NCBI RefSeq assembly: GCF_004798685.1
Contig: NZ_CP039291.1
Coordinates: forward strand, 1,922,001 to 1,986,000
Origin: Cellulomonas shaoxiangyii
GTDB lineage: Bacteria > Actinomycetota > Actinomycetes > Actinomycetales > Cellulomonadaceae
Length of the DNA: 64,000 bases
Reading direction: 5' to 3'
The translations under genes were made by a program, and so were the position numbers. Numbering within the stretch: the stretch's first letter is position 1; the number at the start of each line of letters is the position of its first letter. Under the pieces are notes generated by a model that was not told the origin of the DNA, made no database searches, and saw only the letters and a list, made by a program, of their open reading frames with translations. Shown piece after piece: positions 1-11,611 of this stretch.

Positions 1-692
1 CCGGCGCGCCCCACGAGCGTGAGAACCAGGCCGAAGACGCCCCCGAGCAGAAAGGCCGCGAAGGCGCCGACGCCGACCGCACTCCAGCCGACCCAGCCGA
101 GGTAGAGGCCCAGCACGCCGGCCAGCTTGACGTCCCCGAAACCCATTCCGCGAGGGTGGATGACGGCGAGCAGGAAGTAGAAGGCGAAGAGCCCGGCGCC
201 GGCGACGGCCGCGCGCAGGAGTGCTCCTGGGTCGGCGGTGCCGCCCGGGTTCCAGGCGGCCAGCGCGAGCAGCGCCCCGCCTACGCCGTACGACGGCAGC
301 ACGATGGCGTTGGGGAGACGGTGGACGTCGATGTCGATGAGCGTCAGGCAGACCGTGATCCCGGCGAGGTAGAGGAACGCCGGCACCTCCCACGACCAGC
401 CGACGAGCAAGAACGTGCCAGCGAAGAGCAGGCCCGTCGCGAGCTCGACCACCGGGTAGCGCCACGAGATGGGCAGCTCGCACCGGCGGCACCGTCCTCG
501 CAGCGCCAGCCACGAGATGACGGGGACGTTGTCGTACCAAGCGATCCGGGCGTGGCACCGGGGACAGGCGCTCGGCGGTGCCACAACGGACTCGCCGCGC
601 GGTACCCGCCAGACGACGACGTTGAGGAACGACCCGACGAGCAACCCAAGGAGGCCGGTGACGACCACCCCGTACATCGTCAGGTCGACCAC
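1..692 (-). CDS. pilD: Prepilin peptidase (type IV leader peptidase), 3' end outside window
   Basis: Cleaves the short leader of type IV prepilins at the inner membrane and, in this family, usually methylates the new N-terminus. I translated 230 codons from the GTG at 692, which overlaps the upstream stop (TAGTG), so translation is probably coupled. Visible are the N-terminal GSFLNVVVWRVPRGES segment, two zinc-type pairs CPRC (about residue 43) and CRRC (about 68), the first catalytic aspartate segment LIDIDVHRLP (about 119) and the second, GMGFGDVKLAG (about 185), amid several hydrophobic helices. About the last helix is missing beyond the left edge. It is the last visible gene of the pilus operon and should process the prepilins encoded upstream. 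M. tuberculosis, from memory, keeps a peptidase of this kind (Rv2551c) beside aroE. Confidence 0.93.
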   Translation of the reverse strand, partial: MVDLTMYGVVVTGLLGLLVGSFLNVVVWRVPRGESVVAPPSACPRCHARIAWYDNVPVISWLALRGRCRRCELPISWRYPVVELATGLLFAGTFLLVGWSWEVPAFLYLAGITVCLTLIDIDVHRLPNAIVLPSYGVGGALLALAAWNPGGTADPGALLRAAVAGAGLFAFYFLLAVIHPRGMGFGDVKLAGVLGLYLGWVGWSAVGVGAFAAFLLGGVFGLVLTLVGRA

Positions 693-2698
693 TACCCGTT
701 CCTCACGTCGTCCGGCGTCTGCACGTCGCCCGAATAGCGCAGCGACCACTGGGCGTTCGCCCACCGCGGGAAGTACGGCGGTGAAGCGTACTGGAGCCGG
801 TTGTCGTACCTGTAGTCCTTGGTATAGCCGTACTTGCGCGTCACGCCGCTCTCGGTGACCGAGCGCCCGACGATCCCGCGCCACCGCTGGGCGATGGAGC
901 CGTAGACGAACAGGGTGCCCTGGTCGTTTCCGACCGCGTACTTCTGGACCAGGAACGAGTGCTGGAGCGTCTGGATCGAGCCGGCGATCTGCACGCCCGA
1001 CGTGGGGAACCTGCCGCCCGTCGTCGGGTCGTTGTAGCGCTTGGGCCACTCCCCCGCTGCGGCCGACTCGCCCGACGGAGCGCCCCAGTACCAGGGGCCG
1101 TAGGAGGAGCAGCCGAAGACCGTGTTCCGCGTGCAGTCGCGCCGGGAAGTGACCGTGACCATCCGCGGGTGGAACACCTCGACGGAGTTCGTGGCGACGA
1201 GGCCCAGCAGGTCCGGTGAACCGTCGCCGCGTCCGCCGGCCAGCACGAGGTCACCGGTGACGATCACCGACTCCGCCGAAGCCAGCGTGACGCGCCCCTC
1301 GACGACGCCCTCGGCGTACAGGTTGCCGCGGGCACACATCTTTGTCGTCTCCGTCATGTTGGTGTCGTGCGAGTACGAGAGCGGGGCTCCGCTCGCCGTG
1401 GTGCCGGCTGCGGCGTTCGTGAACGTCCCGAGCGGCAGCTCGCGGCCGGTGGGACCTCCGAGCTCCTTCTCGCGGCACTCGCGCATTGTGCCGGCGGCGG
1501 TTGCGACGTACAGGACCATCTCGTCCGGCACCGGAACGGTGGCACCGGCGGTGCCGTCGAGCTGGTCGAGCGTGCCGCAGGTGGGGCTGACGCCGGCGGG
1601 GGTCGGAATCGCGACGGGCGCGGTGTTGTTGTTGACGCTCCGCTTGTTCCACACCGTCATGGTGCCGCCGGCGTTGAACACCACCCGAGTCGACCCGCGG
1701 TAGTGGCACCCTGGGTGGTTCGCGAACTCGGCCGATGTGTCGTCGAGGTACAGCGGCTCACCGTAGACCGGGGAGACGCCATTGAAGTTCGCCACGCTGC
1801 CGGGGCGCAGGCAGTTCGCCTCCCACTGCGTGTTCGTCGTGCCGGGCGTCCGGCAGCGCGCGTCGGAGGTGGTGACACGCTTCTCGAAGGACGGCTTCAC
1901 CGTGCTGCCGGTGCGGCGACCGCTGAGGATCGTGTCGTTCGTGCGCACCGCGCCGTCGAGCACGTCGCCGCTGGTGAAGGTGATCTCCTGGCAGTTGTAG
2001 TCGTCGCGCGTCCGTCCGGCGCTGTTCGCCTCCCAGAAGTACAGCGCTCGGTCGTACCCGTTCAGGCCGCAGGCGTCCCTGCGCGCCGCCTTCTGCGCCC
2101 GCGTGGCGCTCGAGTCGCCAGGGGCGTCCGCGTAGTCGGCGGGGTCGTACGCCTGGAAGTTCGCGGGATCACCCGACTCGAAGTCGGTGTAGTAGACGTA
2201 GTCCGTGGACCCGCCCTTGCCGACCGCGGTCTCGATGGTCCGGTGCACGCCGTTCACGCGACCCGTGACCGTGAGGAGGATCGACCCTTCCGTCGTCTTG
2301 CGGGCGGCGTCCACCGAGTAATGGAAGTGGGCAGCCTCCGGGTCCGTCTCGCCCGGCACAACCGGCACCCACCCCACGGGCGTGGTGCCGGTCCAGCCGC
2401 ACGGGTTCGCCACCGCGCTCGGCCCGCGCCACGCGACGTTCGTGCAGTCGATCGTGGAGCCGTAGGCGTCCGACCGGTTCATGCGGCTGATGAACTCCTC
2501 GACTCCGGACTGTGCCGCGGCGGCGGCCGCCGCCGTGTCCTGCGTCCGCCGCGCGAGTCCCTGGCTGACGCTCACCGACGCGAGCGCCGCGAGGGACATC
2601 ATCATCAGCACCATCATGGAGCCGATGACCAGCACGAGTCCGGCGCCGTCGTCGTCGCGCAGTCGCGGGGCTCCTGCGGGCGCAGATCGGAAGAGCAT
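692..2698 (-). CDS. PilX-like pilus-associated protein, large and of uncertain family
   Basis: 668 aa from an ATG that overlaps the previous stop (TGATG). After a short charged head there is one strong hydrophobic helix (GLVLVIGSMMVLMMMSLAAL, about residues 19-38) and then an alanine-rich helical stretch with SGVEEFISR. This resembles PilX/PilW-type minor components rather than a canonical GFTLxE prepilin. The remaining roughly 600 residues look extracellular. They are rich in Gly, Thr and Asn, with many scattered cysteines (possible disulfides) and a beta-rich stretch with GRVTLASAESVIVTGDLVLA. I do not recognise a named domain. Position between the PilW-like gene and the prepilin peptidase, with coupled junctions on both sides, says it belongs to the pilus machine. 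A tip or adhesin role is inference. Confidence 0.75.
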   Translation of the reverse strand: MLFRSAPAGAPRLRDDDGAGLVLVIGSMMVLMMMSLAALASVSVSQGLARRTQDTAAAAAAAQSGVEEFISRMNRSDAYGSTIDCTNVAWRGPSAVANPCGWTGTTPVGWVPVVPGETDPEAAHFHYSVDAARKTTEGSILLTVTGRVNGVHRTIETAVGKGGSTDYVYYTDFESGDPANFQAYDPADYADAPGDSSATRAQKAARRDACGLNGYDRALYFWEANSAGRTRDDYNCQEITFTSGDVLDGAVRTNDTILSGRRTGSTVKPSFEKRVTTSDARCRTPGTTNTQWEANCLRPGSVANFNGVSPVYGEPLYLDDTSAEFANHPGCHYRGSTRVVFNAGGTMTVWNKRSVNNNTAPVAIPTPAGVSPTCGTLDQLDGTAGATVPVPDEMVLYVATAAGTMRECREKELGGPTGRELPLGTFTNAAAGTTASGAPLSYSHDTNMTETTKMCARGNLYAEGVVEGRVTLASAESVIVTGDLVLAGGRGDGSPDLLGLVATNSVEVFHPRMVTVTSRRDCTRNTVFGCSSYGPWYWGAPSGESAAAGEWPKRYNDPTTGGRFPTSGVQIAGSIQTLQHSFLVQKYAVGNDQGTLFVYGSIAQRWRGIVGRSVTESGVTRKYGYTKDYRYDNRLQYASPPYFPRWANAQWSLRYSGDVQTPDDVRNG

Positions 2699-3447
2699 CA
2701 CGGCGTCGCTCCCGGGTTCGGGCGCAGGATGACCTGCGAGTTGGTCAGCAGGACGCGCTGGACGAAGGTCGTCGGACGGGGGGCGACACTGACGTCGCTC
2801 ATCACGGTGAGGTGCAGCTCGACCGCCAGCACCCGCTTGAGGTCGGCCGACGACAGCGCTCCGGCGGTCAGCGGTAGAACCGCCCCGTTCTCGTCGTAGT
2901 ACGTGAACAGCGCCGTGCCGGTCCCCCGCACGTCGCGGGCGAGGACCTGGCTCCGGAGTCGGTCCCGGCACACCGCCGACGCGCTGGCGGCTTCGGCGTT
3001 GCAGTACGTCCACCCCGAGCTGGTCGGCGTGGCCGAGTCCGGCCGCTGGACCCTCTCGGTGAGCACGGTGCGGCCCCCGGTCGTCGTGATCGCGTAGGTC
3101 ACGCGGCTCGGGCCGATGGGTGCGCTCCGCGGGTTGTCGATGTTGGCGTAGAACTGCACCCCGAAGGCTGACCCGCTCACGAAGGTGTCGGCGGAGCAGG
3201 AGGTGCAGGACGCGGACAGCTGGCTCGGCTTGATGGCGACGCGCAGCGTGCGGGTGAGGCGGTCGATGGCGCTGCGGCCGGCGTCGATCTGGTCTTGGCG
3301 AGCCACGTTCTGTGCGTTGCTGCGTTCGAAACCGATCGTCAGCGTCAGCGTGGCGATCACCACGATCGACAGGATGAACATCACCACGACGAGCTCCGAC
3401 ATCGTCGTCCCCGCGTCCCGGCGCAGCGCCTCGCGCGCCCGGCTCAC
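2698..3447 (-). CDS. PilW-like minor prepilin
   Basis: 249 aa from a GTG start that overlaps the preceding stop (GTGA). Near the N-terminus is a type IV prepilin signal: a basic head, then AGTTMSELVVVMFILSIVV, with Glu five residues after the Gly of the presumed cleavage site, followed by the long hydrophobic helix. A CTSC pair lies in the N-terminal half. The C-terminal part is a soluble beta-rich domain ending in a PilW-like MSDVSVAPRPTTFVQRVLL region. It probably enters the pilus as a minor subunit that helps start assembly. The upstream prepilin gene and the downstream PilX-like gene fit the usual V-W-X order. The family name is assigned from position and N-terminus, so the exact orthology is uncertain. 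Confidence 0.8.
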   Translation of the reverse strand: MSRAREALRRDAGTTMSELVVVMFILSIVVIATLTLTIGFERSNAQNVARQDQIDAGRSAIDRLTRTLRVAIKPSQLSASCTSCSADTFVSGSAFGVQFYANIDNPRSAPIGPSRVTYAITTTGGRTVLTERVQRPDSATPTSSGWTYCNAEAASASAVCRDRLRSQVLARDVRGTGTALFTYYDENGAVLPLTAGALSSADLKRVLAVELHLTVMSDVSVAPRPTTFVQRVLLTNSQVILRPNPGATP

Positions 3448-5327
3448 GGCGTCACCCCGGCGGCGTTGAAGCGGAGCGTGTAGGACGGGCCGGCGCCGAG
3501 GACGTAGGGGTTACCGGCCGCGGCAGCACACCGGTTCCCCGTGCCCCCCCCGCGGAACTGGTGGCGGTAGACGTACCACCTGCCCTGATCGACCGGCCCT
3601 TGCGCGGTCGACGAGTTGACGGTCGGCAGCGGCACCGCGCCGGCGGGCGTCGTCGTCGTGCAGTTCCCGACGACAGGCGTGCGCGTGAGGATGATCTGGT
3701 AGCCCGACGAGGTCCCGAGATTGGCCGCGTTCGTCACGCGCAGGGTCACCTTGGGGAGGGCCTCCGACCAGGCGATCACGTTCGCCTCGCCGTAGGTCAG
3801 GGCCTTGGGGTAGTTGCCGGCCGGCACACCGAGGCACGCGCCGGCTGCGGCGCCGTCGGTGCGGTAGACGAACCAGTCACCGGATGGCATGAGCAGGTCA
3901 CCGGCACGCGCTGCGTCGACGTTGACGGCCGTCGCCGCCTGGGCCGGGGTCGGGCACGTGGCCAGGCCGGTCGCGCGCGACGCGCTGACGGCCCAGAGCA
4001 CGCCGACCGGCGGTACCGCGTCCGCGCGCAGGGTCGTCGGTGCGAACGGCACCGCGCCGTTGTCGCCGGCGATGAGGGACTGGGCGGGTCCGGCCGCGCA
4101 GTCGAACCCAGGACCGGAGGCGTAGAACGCCCAGGGACCGGGCATGACCTCGACGCCGTCCGGGTCGACGTCGCGGGCCGACGGGTCCGTGCACGCGATG
4201 CCGCTCGGCACCGCCCGCAGCGTCGACGCACCGGGGGGGAGGCCAGTCACGACGGCGCGCGCGAGCTCCAGCACGACGTCGAGCTCACCGGATGCTCCGG
4301 GGGCGAGCGTCACGGTCGGGTACCCGTCGCTGGGCGGGGCGCTGCCGAAGTAGGCGCCGTAGAGGGTCGGCCACAGCCCGCTGAGCGTGGTGACGGCGCT
4401 CGACACGGGGATCGACCTGCTGGCCGACGCCCCCGTCGACTCGGTGGCAACCACCGTGATGGCGCGGTTGAGGAGGTCGCCGTCGGGGAACAGGCTGCCG
4501 TCGGGGCTGACGACGCGGACAGTCAGGGTGGCGGCGCGGTCGTACGCGAAGGGCACCGTGCTGCTCAGGCGGCCGGGCAGGAGCGAGCCGGTCGTCTTCT
4601 CGGGATTCGCCGAGCCGTTCACGTCGACGTAGCCGGTGTCCGTGAGGCGGACCGTGTAGTTGCTGCCCGTGGTCGACGGGTTGACCGCCACGACCGCGCA
4701 GCCGACGTCGTCGGTGAGGCCGCTGCGGGTCTCGGCGCCCCCGGTGACACGCACGGCACGGCCCGGGCTGACTCGTCCCTTCGAGTCGACGACCCTCACC
4801 GCGACGAAGGAGGCGGTGGTGGCGACGCCCGTGCCCTTGGGCGGCGCGAGCTGGATGTGCGACACGACCGGCTTCGTCGACCCCATGCCGACCCAGCTGA
4901 CCGAGACCGTCACGCCGAGCGTCGGGTGGTCGACGAGCGAGCCCCCCTCGCACGCGGAGCGGCCCGGACCGGTGACGTTCCACGCCGCGGAGCGGGTGAC
5001 GGTGTACCGCTGGCTGTCCACGACGAGTGGCTGGCCGGCGACCTGCCCCGGCAACGGGTGCGGGTTCGACACGACGCCGGCCGCGGCGAGCTCGATCGGC
5101 GCGGTGGTCGTCCGCGCGAACTCCTCGCGGACGAAGTCGATCTCCCGCGCGGCGAGGCTCGCCGCGGCGGTCCGTGACCGGCTGTCGACGTTGGCGTTCT
5201 GCGTCTGCATGATGACGCCGAGCACCGCGGTCGAGAGGATGCCGAGGATGACCGCCGCGATGACGACCTCGAGGAGGCTCATGCCGTCGTCGCCCGCGAG
5301 GCGGCGGTGCGGTCCCGTGCGTGCCAT
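3444..5327 (-). CDS. Very large PilV-position prepilin with beta-sandwich repeats
   Basis: 627 aa. The ATG at 5327 follows GGGAG with a 5-nt gap. The first residues give a basic head and then DDGMSLLEVVIAAVILGILSTAVLG, a class III prepilin signal with Glu at +5. Most prepilins are 130-250 aa, so about 450 extra residues stand out. They contain at least two stretches resembling carboxypeptidase-regulatory/Ig-like beta-sandwich domains (VRVVDSKGRVSPGRAVRV and LTVRVVSPDGSLFPDGDL), then further beta-rich modules with paired cysteines. The stop overlaps the next start (GTGA). A tip-located or adhesive minor pilin is a reasonable inference. It is separated from pilA upstream by a strong hairpin, so it is probably made in smaller amounts than the major pilin. 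Confidence 0.82.
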   Translation of the reverse strand: MARTGPHRRLAGDDGMSLLEVVIAAVILGILSTAVLGVIMQTQNANVDSRSRTAAASLAAREIDFVREEFARTTTAPIELAAAGVVSNPHPLPGQVAGQPLVVDSQRYTVTRSAAWNVTGPGRSACEGGSLVDHPTLGVTVSVSWVGMGSTKPVVSHIQLAPPKGTGVATTASFVAVRVVDSKGRVSPGRAVRVTGGAETRSGLTDDVGCAVVAVNPSTTGSNYTVRLTDTGYVDVNGSANPEKTTGSLLPGRLSSTVPFAYDRAATLTVRVVSPDGSLFPDGDLLNRAITVVATESTGASASRSIPVSSAVTTLSGLWPTLYGAYFGSAPPSDGYPTVTLAPGASGELDVVLELARAVVTGLPPGASTLRAVPSGIACTDPSARDVDPDGVEVMPGPWAFYASGPGFDCAAGPAQSLIAGDNGAVPFAPTTLRADAVPPVGVLWAVSASRATGLATCPTPAQAATAVNVDAARAGDLLMPSGDWFVYRTDGAAAGACLGVPAGNYPKALTYGEANVIAWSEALPKVTLRVTNAANLGTSSGYQIILTRTPVVGNCTTTTPAGAVPLPTVNSSTAQGPVDQGRWYVYRHQFRGGGTGNRCAAAAGNPYVLGAGPSYTLRFNAAGVTP

Positions 5328-5415: not shown

Positions 5416-5877
5416 TCACTCAGCAGCAGCTGTCGGGCCGGTGACACCCGTGGCGGCGTTGTAGACGTAGGTGGCGTTGTCACCCTCGGTACCACCGTCG
5501 AACGTCAGCGTGATCGAGAAGTCCGTGCCGTTCGCCGTCGCGGCGGGGCTCGTGACCTCGAACTCGTCGTTGCTCATCGGGACGATGATCGGCTCAGCGC
5601 CCTCAGCCGAGAGGTCGTCGCTCGCGAAGACGTACTGGCCCTCGGTCGGCGTGATGGTCACGGCAGCGTCGTTGTCGATGTAGTACGTCGCGAGCTGCTT
5701 CGCGATCGCCGAGACGTCCGCCTGGGCGGCCTGGTCCACAGCCTTGCGGCTCTGGTTCAGGAACACCGGGATGGCGATGGCCGAGAGGATCCCGATGATG
5801 ATGATGACGACGAGGAGCTCGATCAGGGTGAAGCCCTGGTCGTTCTCCTGCTGGGCCTTGCGGATGCGTGCGATCAC
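5416..5877 (-). CDS. pilA: Major type IV pilin
   Basis: 153 aa from the GTG at 5877, which has AGGAG 7 nt upstream. An ATG 72 nt further upstream overlaps the -10 of the promoter element and would give an odd leader, so I reject it. The protein has a textbook class III signal: short basic head, then QGFTLIELLVVIIIIGILSAIAIP with Glu +5, then the alpha-1 spine (VFLNQSRKAVDQAAQADVSAIAKQLATYYID). A small beta-rich globular head of about 90 acidic residues follows, without cysteines. The length is typical for a major pilin. It sits alone between the pilC side and a strong hairpin and has its own sigma-28-like promoter, consistent with high independent expression. Confidence 0.93.
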   Translation of the reverse strand: MIARIRKAQQENDQGFTLIELLVVIIIIGILSAIAIPVFLNQSRKAVDQAAQADVSAIAKQLATYYIDNDAAVTITPTEGQYVFASDDLSAEGAEPIIVPMSNDEFEVTSPAATANGTDFSITLTFDGGTEGDNATYVYNAATGVTGPTAAAE

Positions 5878-5945: not shown

Positions 5946-5974
5946 ACATCGGTGCAGGTCAGCCAGCTCTTGAG
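5946..5974 (-). promoter_or_regulatory. Sigma-28 (FliA/WhiG)-like promoter of pilA
   Basis: On the minus strand: CTCAAG (5974-5969), 15 nt, ACCGATGT (5953-5946). The start would be near 5938, giving about a 60-nt leader to the GTG at 5877. The -10 part resembles the FliA/WhiG consensus GCCGATAA, and the same CTCAAG/CCGATG pair recurs before pilB. The 5878-6030 gap holds nothing else I recognise. Confidence 0.6.
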
Positions 5975-6030
5975 TGCTTGCCCGATTCGCCCCGGGACTT
6001 CACCCGACCGGAGCAGCACCGTGAGGTGCG

Positions 6031-7260
6031 TCAGCCCACGAGGTCGAACATCGAGAAGATCGGCAGGTAGAGCGCCACGATCATTCCGCCGACGACACCG
6101 CCGATGACGACGATCATGAGCGGCTCGATGAGGCTCGTCAGCGCGTCGGTGGTCGCCTCGACCTCCTGGTCGTAGAAGTCGCTGATCTTCTCGAGCATGG
6201 TGTCGAGCGCACCGGTGTCCTCTCCGACCGCCATCATCTGCACGACCATCGGGGGGAACACGGGGTGCAGCGACAGAGGACCGGCGAGGGACTGCCCCGA
6301 GCGGACGGACTCCTGCACCGCGTGCGCGGCCCTCTCCAGGACGAGGTTCCCGCTCGTCTCACCGACGATGTCGAGCGCCTGGAGGATCGGCACGCCCGAC
6401 TTGAGCATGGTGCCGAAGTTGCGCGCGAACCGGGACACGGCGACCTTCTGGAACAGCTTGCCGAACACCGGGATCTTCAGCTTCAGCGGGTCGAGCCGCT
6501 CGCGGATCGCCTTGTCGTTCTTGTGCTTCGACCACCACCACGCGAACACGCCGCCGGCGAGCACCAACGGTCCGACCGCCCACTTGAGGACGCCGGAGAG
6601 GAATACCAGCACCTTGGTGGGCCCAGGCAGCTCGCCGCCGAGCGACTCGAACATCCCCTCGAAGACGGGGACGATGAACAAGAGCATTCCGACCGTGGCG
6701 AGGATCGCGATGACGAACACGACGACGGGGTAGGTCATCGCCGACTTGATCTTGCTGCGGAGCTTGACCTCCGCCTCGAAGTTGTCGGCCACCGAGACCA
6801 GCACCTGGTCCAGGAAGCCGCCGACCTCTCCTGCCCTGACCATGTTGATCATCAGCGGCGGGAAGACGTGCGGGTGCTTACCGAGCGCCACGGAGAACGC
6901 GACGCCCTGCTCGACGTTGTTGCGCACCTGCGCCAAGGTCCGCGCGAGCGCCTTGTTCTCCGTCTGCTCCGCCACGATGCTCAGTCCGCGCAGCAGCGAA
7001 AGACCCGAGTTGATCATGGTCGCCAGCTGGCGACCCATGATCGCGAGGTCCTTCATGCCGATCTTGTCCCCGAGGCCGGGAATCCTGATCTCGGCGTTCA
7101 TCCCCGAGGTCGAGACCTCGTTGATCGACACCGGCGCCACGCCGATCGACCGCAGCTTGTTGGCCACGGCCGCCTGGTCGGCGGCCTCGAGGCGGCCCTT
7201 GATGATCTTGCCCTCGCGGTCCCGGACCGCGTACTCGAACGTCTTCGTCCCCTTTTCCAT
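6031..7260 (-). CDS. pilC: Type IV pilus inner-membrane platform protein
   Basis: 409 aa, from an ATG overlapping the pilT stop (TGATG). Domain order is typical of PilC/GspF: an N-terminal region starting TFEYAVRDREGKIIKGRLEA, then two repeats of the GspF helical domain. Repeat one contains FSVALGKHPHVFPPLMINMVRAGEVGGFLD, and repeat two contains FARNFGTMLKSGVPILQAL and HPVFPPMVVQMMAVGEDTG. Between them lie two transmembrane helices (VVVFVIAILATVGMLLFIVP and the segment around WAVGPLVLAGGVFAWWW), with one more at the C-terminus (VVIGGVVGGMIVALYLPIF). PilC connects the cytoplasmic motors PilB and PilT to the growing pilin fibre. Length and motifs are complete. Confidence 0.96.
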   Translation of the reverse strand: MEKGTKTFEYAVRDREGKIIKGRLEAADQAAVANKLRSIGVAPVSINEVSTSGMNAEIRIPGLGDKIGMKDLAIMGRQLATMINSGLSLLRGLSIVAEQTENKALARTLAQVRNNVEQGVAFSVALGKHPHVFPPLMINMVRAGEVGGFLDQVLVSVADNFEAEVKLRSKIKSAMTYPVVVFVIAILATVGMLLFIVPVFEGMFESLGGELPGPTKVLVFLSGVLKWAVGPLVLAGGVFAWWWSKHKNDKAIRERLDPLKLKIPVFGKLFQKVAVSRFARNFGTMLKSGVPILQALDIVGETSGNLVLERAAHAVQESVRSGQSLAGPLSLHPVFPPMVVQMMAVGEDTGALDTMLEKISDFYDQEVEATTDALTSLIEPLMIVVIGGVVGGMIVALYLPIFSMFDLVG

Positions 7261-8807
7261 CACATGCTCCCCGTGTCGCCCAAGTCGCCCATGTCGCCGG
7301 CCTCGCCCATGCCGCCGTACGCGCCCATGCCGCCCATGCCGGCCACCCCCTGGCTGCCGCCCGAGAACCGCCCGGTGAGGCGGCTGTAGTCCTCGACGTG
7401 GTGGCACGCCTCGAGGCCTGCCTCGTACGTGATGCGCCCGGTGCGGACCAGGTCCGCCAGGTGCTGGTCGAGGGTGTGCATGCCCTGCTGCGCGCCCGCC
7501 TGCATGGCGGAGTAGATCTGGTGCGTCTTGCCCTCGCGGATGAGGTTGCGCACGGCCGGCGTGGCCACGAGCACCTCGGTCGCGACCGCCCGCCCGGGCC
7601 CGTCGGCGCGCTTGCACAGGGTCTGGCAGACGACGCCCTGGAGCGCCCCCGCGAGCTGCGTGCGCACCTGCGCCTGCTGGTGGGAGGGGAACACGTCGAT
7701 GATGCGGTCGATGGTCTGCGCGGCGTCCTGGGTGTGCAGGGTCGCGAAGACGAGGTGGCCGGTCTCGGCGGCGGTCAGGGCGACGGAGATGGTCTCGAGG
7801 TCGCGCATCTCGCCGACCAAGATGATGTCGGGGTCCTGACGCAGCACGTGCTTGAGGGCGTTGGCGAACGAGTGGGTGTCCGCGCCGACCTCTCGCTGGT
7901 TGACCACGCACTTCTTGTGCCGGTGGAGGAACTCGATGGGGTCCTCGACCGTCATGATGTGGTCCTCGCGCGTGCGGTTGGCGAGGTCGATGATCGAGGC
8001 CAGCGTGGTGGACTTGCCGGAGCCGGTGGGCCCGGTCACGAGGACCAGACCGCGCGGCATGCCCGCGAACGTCCCCACCACGGGCGGGACGCCGAGCTGC
8101 TTGAGCTCCTTGATCTCGTAGGGGATCACGCGGAACGCGGCCCCGACGGACTCCCGCTGCTGGTACACGTTCACGCGGAACCGGGCCAGGCCCCGCACGG
8201 CGTGGGAGATGTCCAGCTCGAGCGCGGCCTCGAACTTCTCGCGGTTCTTCTGCGTGAGCATCGCGTAGATGGACCGGCGCAGCGGCTCGGGCGTCATCGG
8301 CGCGAAGCCCTCCAGCGGACGCAGGCTGCCGGACACGCGGACCATCGGCGGTGCGCCGGTCGTCAGGTGCAGGTCGGACGCACCCAGCGCCACCATCGCG
8401 CGCAGGATGTCGTCGATGACGACGTCACCCTCCTCACGCTGCTGCCCGGTGCCCGACCGCGGTGCCGGCCGCGGGGCGCCGTGGGCGGCGAGCGACGATG
8501 GCTGGGGCGGCGCGGCCGGCGCCGGCGGGCCGGCCATCATCCGCGCGGACGCGGGTGCCGGCGGCGGCGCGGCGGGCGGCAGCGGCTGCGGGAGGAAGGC
8601 GGCCTGCGCCCCGTACGCGGCCGGACCGGCGGGCACCGACGGGACGGGCGGAGGCGGCGCCGGGGCGTGGGCGGCCGGCGCCGGCGGCGTCTGCGAGGGC
8701 ATCGGGTGGAACATCGCGGTCGCCGCGAGTGCGGTGTCCGCACGGGCCGGCAGGTAGGGCGGGAGCGGCCGGGTGGGCCCGCCCTGCCCCTCGTAGCTGT
8801 CGCTCAC
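7260..8807 (-). CDS. pilT: Type IV pilus retraction ATPase with Pro/Ala-rich N-terminal extension
   Basis: 515 aa from the GTG at 8807. GGAGG lies 5 nt upstream of it, whereas the ATG four codons earlier sits against that same GGAGG, so GTG is preferred. The ATPase core carries Walker A GPTGSGKST (about residue 260), the Asp box around VEDPIEFLHRHKK, Walker B PDIILVGEMRDLETI and the His box HLVFATLHTQDAAQTIDRI. PilT powers pilus disassembly and twitching. Usual family length is about 350. The excess is a low-complexity Pro/Ala stretch of about 125 residues at the N-terminus and a Gly/Met-rich tail of about 30 residues (GMGGMGAYGGMGEAGDMG). pilB is 97 bp upstream and pilC is coupled downstream. 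Confidence 0.95.
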   Translation of the reverse strand: MSDSYEGQGGPTRPLPPYLPARADTALAATAMFHPMPSQTPPAPAAHAPAPPPPVPSVPAGPAAYGAQAAFLPQPLPPAAPPPAPASARMMAGPPAPAAPPQPSSLAAHGAPRPAPRSGTGQQREEGDVVIDDILRAMVALGASDLHLTTGAPPMVRVSGSLRPLEGFAPMTPEPLRRSIYAMLTQKNREKFEAALELDISHAVRGLARFRVNVYQQRESVGAAFRVIPYEIKELKQLGVPPVVGTFAGMPRGLVLVTGPTGSGKSTTLASIIDLANRTREDHIMTVEDPIEFLHRHKKCVVNQREVGADTHSFANALKHVLRQDPDIILVGEMRDLETISVALTAAETGHLVFATLHTQDAAQTIDRIIDVFPSHQQAQVRTQLAGALQGVVCQTLCKRADGPGRAVATEVLVATPAVRNLIREGKTHQIYSAMQAGAQQGMHTLDQHLADLVRTGRITYEAGLEACHHVEDYSRLTGRFSGGSQGVAGMGGMGAYGGMGEAGDMGDLGDTGSM

Positions 8808-8903
8808 TGCATCCTCCACGCCGTCGTCCCGGCACGCGCGGCCCCCGCTGGGCCCGCGTTCCTGACATCGGCGGACGCCCGACCGGACTTGAGGCGCGGC
8901 GCC

Positions 8904-10577
8904 TCACGCGACGACGCGGAGGATCTCCTCGATCGACGTGTCGCCGCTGGCCACCTTGTACCAGCCGTCCTCGCGCAGCGTCCGCATGCCCTGCTTCACG
9001 GCGGTCGCGGCGATGTCGGCGGACGACGAGTGCCCCACGGCGTGCCGCTCGATGTCCTCCGTCACGTTCATCACCTCGTGCAGCGCCAGGCGTCCCTTGT
9101 AGCCGGTGCGTGAGCACGCGGTGCAGCCCCGGGGGCGCACCAGCTCGGGCAAGGGCTCCCCCGGCACCCACGGGAACTGGGCGGCCTCCAGCTCCTGCGG
9201 CGTGGGCGTGTAGGGCTCCTTGCACTTGCTGCACAGGCGGCGCGCGAGCCGCTGCGCGACCACGCAGTCGAGCGCCGAGCCGACGAGGAACGGCTCGATG
9301 CCCATCTCCGTCAGCCGCGTCACGGCGGACGGCGCGTCGTTGGTGTGCAGCGTGGACAGCACGAGGTGACCCGTGAGCGCGGCCTCGATCGCGATCTGTG
9401 CCGTCTCGTGGTCGCGGATCTCACCGAGCAGCACCACGTCGGGGTCCGAGCGCAGGATCGAGCGCAGGGCGGCAGCGAAGGTCAGGCCGGCCTTGGGGTT
9501 GACCTGGACCTGGTTGATGCCCGGGAGCCGGTACTCCACCGGGTCCTCGACCGTGATGACGTTGATCTCCGGCTTCGACACCGCGTTGAGCGTCGCGTAC
9601 AGGGTGGTCGACTTGCCCGAGCCGGTCGGGCCGGTGACGAGGATCATCCCGTACGGCTTGGTGTACGACTCCCTGTACCGCGTGTAGTTGTGCTCGAGGA
9701 ACGACAGGTCGCGCAGGTCCAGGCTCGCGGTCGAGTTGTCGAGGATGCGCATGACGATCTTCTCGCCCCACACCGTCGGGAGCGTCGCCACGCGCAGGTC
9801 GATCTTGCGCCCCTGGTGGACGACCGACATGCGCCCGTCCTGCGGCTTGCGCTTCTCGGCGATGTCGATGTCGCTCATGATCTTCACGCGGCTGATCACC
9901 GCGCCGATGATGTTCTTCGGGGAGCGCTGCGTCTCGTGCAGGACGCCGTCGATGCGGTAGCGCACGCGCAGGTCGTGCTCGTTCGGCTCGATGTGGATGT
10001 CCGACGCCCGGTCGGTGATCGCCTGCGTGACCAGGAGGTTGACGAAGCGGACGATCGGGGCGTCGTCGTCGACGAGCCCGCCGAGCCGCGACAGGTCCAT
10101 CTCGGGCGCGGGGGCCGCGTCCTCGAACGCCGAGGACAGGCCCTCCATCTCGTCGTCCGCGCGGCAGAACCGGTCGATCGCGCGCAGCACGTTGTCGTAC
10201 GTGGCGACCACGGGGATCACGGGCATGCGGGACACCGTGCGGACGTCGTCGACCGCGACGACGTTGCCGGGGTCCGCGGTCGCCAGCACGATCGCACCGT
10301 CGCGCATGCCGACCGGCAGCACCGAGTACCGCCGGCACAGCGCCGCCGGCACGAGCCCGATCGCCGAGCGGTCCACGGCGTACTCGTCCAGGTCGACGAA
10401 CTCCATGCCGACCTGCGCCGCCAGCGCCCGCACGAGCTGCGACTCGCTGAGCATCCCGAGCTCCACGAGGGTGCGTCCCAGGGACCCGCCGAGCGAGCTC
10501 TGCTGGTCGATCGCCGCGAGCAGCTGCGCCTCCGTCACGAGGCCTTCGTCGAGCAGGACTTCCCCGAGCTGCTTCAC
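8904..10577 (-). CDS. pilB: Type IV pilus assembly ATPase
   Basis: 557 aa, ATG start. Residues 1-150 form the GspE N-terminal/MshEN-type domain (KQLGEVLLDEGLVTEAQLLAAI). The ATPase domain has SDIHIEPNEHDLRVRYRIDG, Walker A GPTGSGKSTT (about 315), the Asp box VEDPVEYRLPG, Walker B PDVVLLGEIRDHETA and the His box HLVLSTLHTNDAPSAVTRL. A C-terminal zinc motif follows, with CSKC then CTAC. These features mark the extension motor of the PilB/GspE family. It is the first gene of the pilus operon in the direction of transcription and is preceded by the sigma-28-like element at 10625-10654. Confidence 0.96.
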   Translation of the reverse strand: MKQLGEVLLDEGLVTEAQLLAAIDQQSSLGGSLGRTLVELGMLSESQLVRALAAQVGMEFVDLDEYAVDRSAIGLVPAALCRRYSVLPVGMRDGAIVLATADPGNVVAVDDVRTVSRMPVIPVVATYDNVLRAIDRFCRADDEMEGLSSAFEDAAPAPEMDLSRLGGLVDDDAPIVRFVNLLVTQAITDRASDIHIEPNEHDLRVRYRIDGVLHETQRSPKNIIGAVISRVKIMSDIDIAEKRKPQDGRMSVVHQGRKIDLRVATLPTVWGEKIVMRILDNSTASLDLRDLSFLEHNYTRYRESYTKPYGMILVTGPTGSGKSTTLYATLNAVSKPEINVITVEDPVEYRLPGINQVQVNPKAGLTFAAALRSILRSDPDVVLLGEIRDHETAQIAIEAALTGHLVLSTLHTNDAPSAVTRLTEMGIEPFLVGSALDCVVAQRLARRLCSKCKEPYTPTPQELEAAQFPWVPGEPLPELVRPRGCTACSRTGYKGRLALHEVMNVTEDIERHAVGHSSSADIAATAVKQGMRTLREDGWYKVASGDTSIEEILRVVA

Positions 10578-10624
10578 GTGCGTCCCTCCGCCTCACCGCG
10601 GGCGCCGGCGCGGCACCCACGGGG

Positions 10625-10654
10625 TCATCGGCAGACCGGCGGGGTGTCCTTGAG
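10625..10654 (-). promoter_or_regulatory. Sigma-28 (FliA/WhiG)-like promoter of pilB
   Basis: On the minus strand: CTCAAG (10654-10649), 16 nt, GCCGATGA (10632-10625). Seven of eight bases match the sigma-28 family -10 consensus GCCGATAA. The predicted start near 10617 leaves a leader of about 40 nt before the pilB ATG. The rest of the 173-nt gap between pilB and aroE shows nothing I recognise. Confidence 0.6.
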
Positions 10655-10750: not shown

Positions 10751-11611
10751 TCAGCCGGCGACCGGCGCCAGCACCGCCTGCAGCGCGGCGTCCATCGCCG
10801 CGACGGGCGCCACGCGCCCGGTCATGAGCCGCACCTGCTCGGCCGCCTGGTGCAGGAGCATCCGCTCACCGCCGACGGTCCGCCCGCCGGCCCGCTCCCA
10901 CGCCTGCGCCAGCGCCGTCGGCCGCGGGTCGTAGACGACGTCGAGGAGCACCCCGCGCACGGGCGCCGCCAGGGCCGCGGCGAGGGCGTCGGGCGCGTGG
11001 GCGGGGAGCGTCGAGACGACGACGTCCGCCGCGGCGACCTCGGGGGACGCCGCGTCGAGCGGGCGCAGGACCGGCTCGACGCCCATCCGGTGCGCGGCGC
11101 GCAGGAGGGCGCCGGCGCGGCCGGCCGAGCGCAGGTGCACCGTGGGCGTCGTGCACCCGAGCTGCGCGAGGGCGGCGAGCGTGGACGCCGCCGTGGCGCC
11201 GGCCCCGAGCACCGCCGCGCGGCGCACGCCCCCGGTCACGCCGGCCTCGCCGAGCGCCGCGACGATGCCGTGCACGTCGGTGTTCGCCCCGGTCAGGACG
11301 CGGCGCGGCCCCTCCCCCTGCGGCAGCACCGTGTTGACGGCACCGACCACCTGGGCGAGCGGCTCGACGTGGTCGAGCAGGCCGAGCACCGCGTGCTTGA
11401 GCGGCATGGTCAGGCTCAGTCCGGCCCACGAGGCGTCCAGGTCTGCCAGGAACGCGGGCAGCGTCTCCTCGGTGACGTCGTGCACCTCGTAGCGCCAGCC
11501 GTCCAGCCCGAGCGCCGCGTACGCGGCGCCGTGCAGGACCGGGGACAGCGAGTGCCCGACGGGGTGCCCGAGGACCGCGCAGCGGCGCACGTGGGCGACC
11601 GTGCCGGTCAC
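10751..11611 (-). CDS. aroE: Shikimate dehydrogenase
   Basis: 286 aa from a GTG that overlaps the mltG stop (GTGA). It reduces 3-dehydroshikimate to shikimate with NADPH in the aromatic amino-acid pathway. Seen are the substrate segment VLGHPVGHSLSPVLHGAAY (about residue 13), the catalytic-lysine segment LTMPLKHAV in place of the more usual NVTxPxK, VNTVLPQGEG, GANTDVHGI, the nucleotide loop VLGAGATAAST (about 142) and a C-terminal LLHQAAEQVRLMTG region. Length is normal. It is coupled to mltG and ruvX, an arrangement common in actinobacteria. Confidence 0.95.
   Translation of the reverse strand: MTGTVAHVRRCAVLGHPVGHSLSPVLHGAAYAALGLDGWRYEVHDVTEETLPAFLADLDASWAGLSLTMPLKHAVLGLLDHVEPLAQVVGAVNTVLPQGEGPRRVLTGANTDVHGIVAALGEAGVTGGVRRAAVLGAGATAASTLAALAQLGCTTPTVHLRSAGRAGALLRAAHRMGVEPVLRPLDAASPEVAAADVVVSTLPAHAPDALAAALAAPVRGVLLDVVYDPRPTALAQAWERAGGRTVGGERMLLHQAAEQVRLMTGRVAPVAAMDAALQAVLAPVAG

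Follow-up and report, generated by a model that had tools for sequence, protein, structure and literature searches.

The 64,000-nucleotide stretch of the Cellulomonas shaoxiangyii genome analyzed here (hereafter, the window; G000:C1:1922001-1986000 of a complete 3.91-Mb genome) contains a type IV pilus gene cluster in which several genes are preceded by a box that consists of CTCAAG and, after a near-fixed spacer, CCGAT. These boxes are very likely the promoters of the WhiG-type sigma factor of this genome, which would drive a pilus regulon. The boxes, the genes behind them, their conservation in relatives and the co-occurrence of WhiG with pili are documented by sequence comparison, from which we infer that WhiG recognizes the boxes. 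Under this scenario, WhiG-RNA polymerase would read CTCAAG as the -35 element and (N)CCGAT as the -10 element, and the pilus cluster would be transcribed from four starts, namely, those of pilB, pilT-pilC, pilA with the minor pilin genes, and pilMNO. Further WhiG targets would be an unlinked pilT paralog, a LuxR-type regulator, a camelysin/TasA-like protein, a protein of unknown kind and an RsiG-family protein; the latter would most likely bind WhiG, forming a negative feedback loop.

Promoter boxes and the predicted regulon

An earlier note on the window had described boxes of the form CTCAAG-N16 and CTCAAG-N15 on the minus strand before pilB and pilA, respectively, and direct reading confirms both. 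The accompanying statement that no other gene examined carries such a box is wrong: a third copy precedes pilT and a fourth precedes pilM, outside the window. The strict pattern CTCAAGN{14,17}CCGAT matches three times in the window, compared with a mean of 0.04 and a maximum of 1 in 100 shuffles. The looser pattern CTCAN{16,19}CCGAT also yields three matches, but 1.3 are expected and 13 of the 100 shuffles produce at least three; in the window this form is thus little more frequent than chance would give, and all counts were based on CTCAAG. Across the whole genome, the strict pattern has 12 matches and the reversed pattern has one. Nine of the 12 are intergenic and located 5' of a gene (three in the window, six outside), and three are intragenic. 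The possibility, raised in the earlier note, that the motif is randomly scattered over the genome is at odds with these counts.

The features of the pilus cluster are as follows; genes were predicted by a custom script whose training set was six segments of the window, and distances to starts are approximate.

10627..10654, minus strand: predicted WhiG-type promoter of pilB, CTCAAG-N16-GCCGATGA (direct reading and pattern count)
8904..10577, minus strand: pilB, extension ATPase with an MshEN domain (TIGR02538, 631.6 bits, cut-off 675.65; T2SSE and MshEN)
8867..8893, minus strand: predicted WhiG-type promoter of pilT, CTCAAG-N15-GCCGATGT (direct reading and pattern count)
7260..8807, minus strand: pilT, retraction ATPase (TIGR01420, 500.8 bits)
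6031..7260, minus strand: pilC, platform protein, 3' of pilT and without a box of its own (closest NCBIfam models PilC/GspF, with scores below cut-off)
5948..5974, minus strand: predicted WhiG-type promoter of pilA, CTCAAG-N15-ACCGATGT (direct reading and pattern count)
5416..5877, minus strand: pilA, major pilin-like (N_methyl PF07963, 36.2 bits; TIGR02532, 37.1 bits)
3444..5327, minus strand: minor-pilin-like protein, 3' of pilA (gene call; named by eye from the N-terminal sequence)
2698..3447, minus strand: minor-pilin-like protein (gene call; named by eye)
692..2698, minus strand: PilX-like protein (gene call; named by eye)
1..692, minus strand: prepilin-peptidase-like protein (pilD), extending past the window edge (gene call; named by eye)
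G000:C1:1921856-1921882 (L019 10857-10883): predicted promoter box of pilM, just left of the window, 38 nucleotides before pilM
L019 8290-10819: pilMNO, beyond the left window edge, past pilD (PilM PF11104, 145.5 bits)

PilB, PilT, PilC, a pilin and PilM occur together, as in a type IVa pilus system, and the matches to PilN and PilO are below the Pfam cut-offs. Among the named relatives, the closest PilC proteins are those of Cellulomonas, the best at 85% identity. The spacer of the pilB box is one nucleotide above the commonest form, and the GTG start of pilB lies 50 nucleotides 3' of this box, behind a Shine-Dalgarno-like ggaggg.

The nine intergenic sites precede pilB, pilT, pilA, pilM, pilT2, the rsiG-like gene, and genes for a LuxR-type regulator, a camelysin-like protein and a 396-aa protein. 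Here pilT2 is the unlinked pilT paralog (TIGR01420, 440 bits), the LuxR-type regulator is identified by its GerE match (59.9 bits), and the sole match of the 396-aa protein is to DUF6278, below threshold. The camelysin/TasA-like protein (PF12389, 27.6 bits, cut-off 22.5) is encoded at L024 3137-3820 on the minus strand, with the box 75 nucleotides upstream and a box also in four relatives; it may represent a surface fiber that is co-regulated with the pili. A signal peptidase label given by eye to the gene that follows found no Pfam family at 0.01 and was not used.

At four of the nine sites (rsiG, luxR, pilT2 and the 396-aa gene), the gap between CCGAT and the GTG or ATG codon is exactly 9 nucleotides, which leaves no room for a Shine-Dalgarno sequence and thus suggests that these four targets are expressed as leaderless mRNAs.

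The WhiG-type sigma factor and its boxes in relatives

In support of the assignment of the promoters to the FliA/WhiG family by the earlier note, which had also called for a search for a sigma-28-family gene, exactly one gene of this genome exceeds the cut-off of the FliA_WhiG model TIGR02479 (261.2 bits against 189.6); the runner-up, at 113.6 bits, is a sigma factor of another type. Sigma regions 2, 3 and 4 are all above their Pfam cut-offs, and the narrower NCBIfam WhiG equivalog NF004935 is narrowly missed (330.3 bits, cut-off 343). The best match in the PDB is WhiG of Streptomyces venezuelae, at 50% or so identity. The protein is 50-78% identical to the WhiG-type proteins of 20 relatives, compared with 33-38% for the FliA encoded in 17 flagellar loci. 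The gene lies between rpsB and a pair of neighbors, xerC and dprA; whiG-like genes are described as occupying a conserved neighborhood (PMC4255298). By these sequence comparisons, the gene is an ortholog of whiG rather than of flagellar fliA. No box was detected in the 400 nucleotides 5' of whiG itself, a search of this genome found no flagellin, and no second, flagellar-type FliA scores above the family cut-off.

The box is conserved in relatives. The strict pattern yields 118 sense matches over 80 named pilus loci, compared with none antisense and two in reversed controls, and 57 of the 80 loci contain at least one. TAAA used as the -35 element in the same loci is at control level (8 sense, 5 antisense, 5 reversed), as it is in flagellar loci. 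When examined gene by gene, with 125 intragenic sense matches of the loose pattern dropped, intergenic CTCAAG precedes pilM within 300 nucleotides in 40 of the 57 loci where pilM was called, pilA in 32/71, pilT in 16/77 and pilB in 2/73. Of the pilB genes of relatives, 34 of 74 are preceded within 140 nucleotides by CTCA-N18/19-NCGAT, mostly without AG, which indicates that AG is favored but not obligatory.

When 12 relatives were searched genome-wide with CTCAAGN{15,17}CCGAW, every one of them had matches, above the control in each, with a smaller margin in some (G001 and G039, 7 matches each against 4; G020, 13 against 6). Eighty regions from 10 of these genomes were chosen among the matches listed, mainly with the commonest spacer; they hold 82 matches, of which 61 are intergenic and at most 300 nucleotides from a called start, or 60 after removal of one duplicate. 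Among these 60 listed matches, 44 precede orthologs of the targets predicted in C. shaoxiangyii (luxR 9, pilM 9, pilT2 8, the 396-aa gene 5, pilA 5, the camelysin-like gene 4, pilT 2, rsiG 2). The start codon falls exactly at +10 in 4/5 orthologs of the 396-aa gene, 5/8 of pilT2, 6/9 of luxR and 1/4 of the camelysin-like gene, and in 0/22 of the pilM, pilT, pilA and rsiG orthologs combined.

The phyletic distribution of WhiG follows the pili better than the flagella. Among 119 genomes sampled over the order, with pili scored by PilC and WhiG by at least 240 bits, 48 have pili and 43 have WhiG; both are present in 42, pili only in 6, WhiG only in one and neither in 70, so that WhiG is found in 42/48 genomes with pili and 1/71 without (Fisher test, 1.8e-24, kinship ignored). 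For flagellin and WhiG, the corresponding numbers are 33 with both, 8 with flagellin only, 10 with WhiG only and 68 with neither (2.5e-13, kinship ignored). Pili are present in 9 of the 10 genomes that have WhiG without flagellin and in none of the 8 that have flagellin without WhiG. Within the family of C. shaoxiangyii, the four genomes with pili all encode WhiG and the five without pili all lack it. Among 50 named relatives, a WhiG-type gene above the cut-off is present in 47, including all 17 that are flagellin-negative; a second, lower-scoring FliA-type gene is found in 32 of the 33 flagellin-positive relatives (it is partial in the last one) and in one of the 17 flagellin-negative ones. 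The boxes show the same pattern: 14 loci, chosen from the 42 genomes that combine WhiG with pili, have 36 strict sense matches, none antisense and one reversed, whereas the pilus loci of all six pili-only genomes have none. The PilC proteins of these six are more distant (48-52% identity in five, 49% in the sixth).

Flagellar genes of relatives are preceded by similar but distinguishable sites. The comparison covered intergenic CTCA..CCGA sites in 17 flagellar loci; in the scan for similar boxes, 53 of 108 matches were kept as intergenic and within 250 nucleotides. With fliA excluded, 38 of 46 flagellar sites have N17 as the spacer, compared with N18 in 126 of 154 pilus sites (Fisher test, 3e-24), and AG follows CTCA in 2/46 against 97/154 (1e-13). 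The fliA gene has a pilus-type promoter (CTCA-N18-CCGA) in nine of the 17 loci, with an in-frame GTG exactly at +10 in eight of these nine; no such promoter was found before fliA in the other eight, including both Demequina loci. Thus, the connection between type IV pili and flagella that the earlier note proposed is not supported in C. shaoxiangyii itself, which has no detected flagellin and no second FliA, and finds support only in relatives, some of which probably employ WhiG to drive fliA and FliA to drive the flagellar genes.

Several observations weigh against the assignment of the boxes to WhiG. The strict box is missing from 23 of the 80 pilus loci, including 13 of 16 from Demequina, even though WhiG-type genes are present in all 10 Demequina genomes searched; no clear shared alternative box was found in the Demequina loci (L094, L095 and L098 are among those without the box). 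Sixteen of the 60 listed intergenic boxes precede genes other than orthologs of the predicted targets. The Fisher tests of co-occurrence ignore phylogeny over the order. Finally, the looser CTCA-N18-CCGA occurs in the six WhiG-less loci (6 sense, 1 antisense), so that only the strict form discriminates; in the same scan, none of these six loci has an intergenic CTCA box.

Other explanations of the boxes appear far less probable. Random matches, or matches imposed by codon usage at high GC content, which would account for the three intragenic matches among the 12 and for the near-chance counts of the loose patterns in the window, are refuted for the strict pattern by the shuffles, the reversed control, the 80 pilus loci and the comparison of loci with and without WhiG, and we consider this explanation scarcely credible. 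It is highly improbable, too, that a flagellar-type FliA reads the boxes, as the flagellar reading of the earlier note would imply. Flagellar genes of relatives indeed carry closely similar CTCA..CCGAT boxes, but this complete genome encodes neither a second FliA-type protein nor a detected flagellin, FliA-type genes track flagellin across the relatives whereas WhiG persists in those that lack it, and the pilus and flagellar sites (other than fliA) mostly differ in the spacer. Only marginally better are the prospects of the boxes being operators for a DNA-binding regulator acting near a housekeeping promoter. Such a regulator could be the LuxR-type protein, the gene of which itself carries a box, but the -10 half is that of WhiG/FliA promoters (GCCGATAA in PMC8325347), the spacing is near-fixed, start codons recur at +10 both in this genome and in the orthologs, and box presence follows WhiG.

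A putative RsiG-family anti-sigma factor

The predicted WhiG target that might restrain WhiG is a protein that matches the RsiG family PF22802 with 31.6 bits (cut-off 27). An hhalign comparison with canonical RsiG (E-value 2.5e-5, probability 75) aligns both helices, and the AlphaFold model (pLDDT 81.7) contains helices 9-45 and 89-123, that is, the two long antiparallel helices predicted for an RsiG domain. The model superimposes on 6pfj_T with a root-mean-square deviation of 2.8 over 100 residues; coiled coils match widely, and both structural observations are weak when taken alone. The box CTCAAG-N-(C/T)CGA is present upstream of 22 of the 26 resolved rsiG-like genes, and the strict form occurs at two such genes of Demequina (L137 and L144). 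One genome of the order sample (G112) has five PF22802 matches, the highest among the near relatives listed.

Each of these lines is weak singly, and other results count against the RsiG assignment. The top Foldseek row is 6pfv_T but with an E-value of 0.28 amid many coiled coils; PF22802 matches are found in 27 of the 50 relatives, above the cut-off in three; there is no match to PDB sequences up to an E-value of 10 and only one irrelevant weak match in NCBIfam. A competing possibility is that this protein is a coiled-coil member of the regulon without anti-sigma function and that WhiG is controlled otherwise. It is consistent with a weak match that lies mainly over helix 1, with the loss of most residues that bind cyclic di-GMP (c-di-GMP), and with the equal structural scores of several unrelated coiled coils. 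However, RsiG is favored by the top Foldseek row as well as by high sequence identity, and the hhalign alignment covers both helices. It is also common for an anti-sigma factor to be encoded in the regulon of its cognate sigma factor, which counts against a coiled coil without such a role. We regard the coiled-coil alternative as unlikely though far from negligible, and the inhibition of WhiG by an RsiG-family protein as the better inference.

The c-di-GMP motif, E(X)3S(X)2R(X)3[Q/H](X)3D, is eroded in this RsiG variant, judging from the alignment. Among 51 family members, the helix 1 residues are retained as follows: E in 0, S in 6, R in 50, Q/H in 6 and D in 51, compared with 13/13 at each position in canonical RsiG; in helix 2, E is present in 37/51 and the other residues are absent in the alignment. 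The MshEN domain of PilB (76.3 bits) is of a c-di-GMP-binding type, in a genome whose RsiG-like protein lacks most of the c-di-GMP motif. Because PilB carries this domain, c-di-GMP may act after transcription, which is our guess.

A broader scenario, which we rate somewhat short of an even prospect, is that across the order WhiG could be the master regulator of surface motility, driving the pili directly and, in members with flagella, a leaderless fliA, so that both motility systems would belong to one cascade, with the two tiers separated by one base of spacer (CTCAAG with N18 for WhiG, CTCA with N17 for FliA); the anti-sigma factor, an eroded RsiG that is itself a WhiG target, would have lost c-di-GMP sensing, and c-di-GMP would perhaps act later, on PilB via MshEN.

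Relation to known systems

Control of pili by WhiG is already known in Rubrobacter, where WhiG and a single-motif RsiG control pili from TAAA/GCCGATAA promoters with mapped starts (PMC8325347). As in Rubrobacter, a WhiG-type sigma factor and an RsiG-family protein occur in a non-flagellated unicellular actinobacterium. The promoters inside the pilus cluster number three in Rubrobacter and, by prediction, four here. The -10 element fits the family, (N)CCGAT, and the -35 element is CTCAAG rather than the TAAA of Rubrobacter. RsiG of Rubrobacter binds c-di-GMP through a single motif, which is eroded here, and 5 of 12 Rubrobacter promoters precede genes for diguanylate cyclases or phosphodiesterases, compared with none of the nine sites here before a gene identified as such. 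In Actinoplanes missouriensis, FliA-family factors are said to direct both the pili and the flagella of zoospores (PMC8325347; also PMC13293333, PMC11064477), so that one sigma family serving pili and flagella is the shared feature; that organism, however, is sporulating, flagellated and reported to lack RsiG, whereas C. shaoxiangyii has no flagella and WhiG is the sole family member above the cut-off. The earlier note attributes a CTCA-type -35 element to flagellar promoters of Actinoplanes; a printed CTCA consensus was not found in the passages of the Actinoplanes literature that were covered. The Streptomyces WhiG-RsiG switch is similar in its WhiG (about 50% identical) and the conserved whiG neighborhood (PMC8325347, PMC4255298) but controls sporulation, involves an RsiG with twin intact c-di-GMP motifs and employs TAAA/GCCGATAA promoters. 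A further difference from both Rubrobacter and Actinoplanes is the tiered control predicted for relatives, with WhiG acting above fliA.

The CTCAAG -35 element, the RsiG variant whose c-di-GMP motif is eroded and whose gene carries the same kind of promoter, the apparently leaderless targets and the predicted pilus-type promoter at fliA of flagellated relatives appear to be new. A full-text search, with most subscription journals outside its scope, found no publication on a WhiG pilus regulon in Cellulomonas. The results suggest that control of pili by WhiG, which was demonstrated in Rubrobacter, an early-branching lineage, and is also known from Actinoplanes, is widespread in this order. The conserved regulon offers concrete targets in an order with many culturable members, with pili first, fliA second and RsiG as a candidate brake. 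Our observations suggest that a c-di-GMP-sensing anti-sigma factor can lose its ligand residues yet stay in the regulon, and the one-base spacer difference between sister sigma factors, if true, would offer a clear case for testing how sigma factors tell promoters apart.

As for the wider neighborhood, a GGDEF-EAL protein is encoded on the plus strand a few genes past pilO (L019 3-1712), with no strict box before it in the genome-wide list. The pilus cluster is flanked by aroE-like and aroC-aroK-aroB-like genes (window 10751-11611 and L019 5190-8170, respectively; named by eye), an arrangement that resembles the proteobacterial gene order pilMNOPQ-aroKB.

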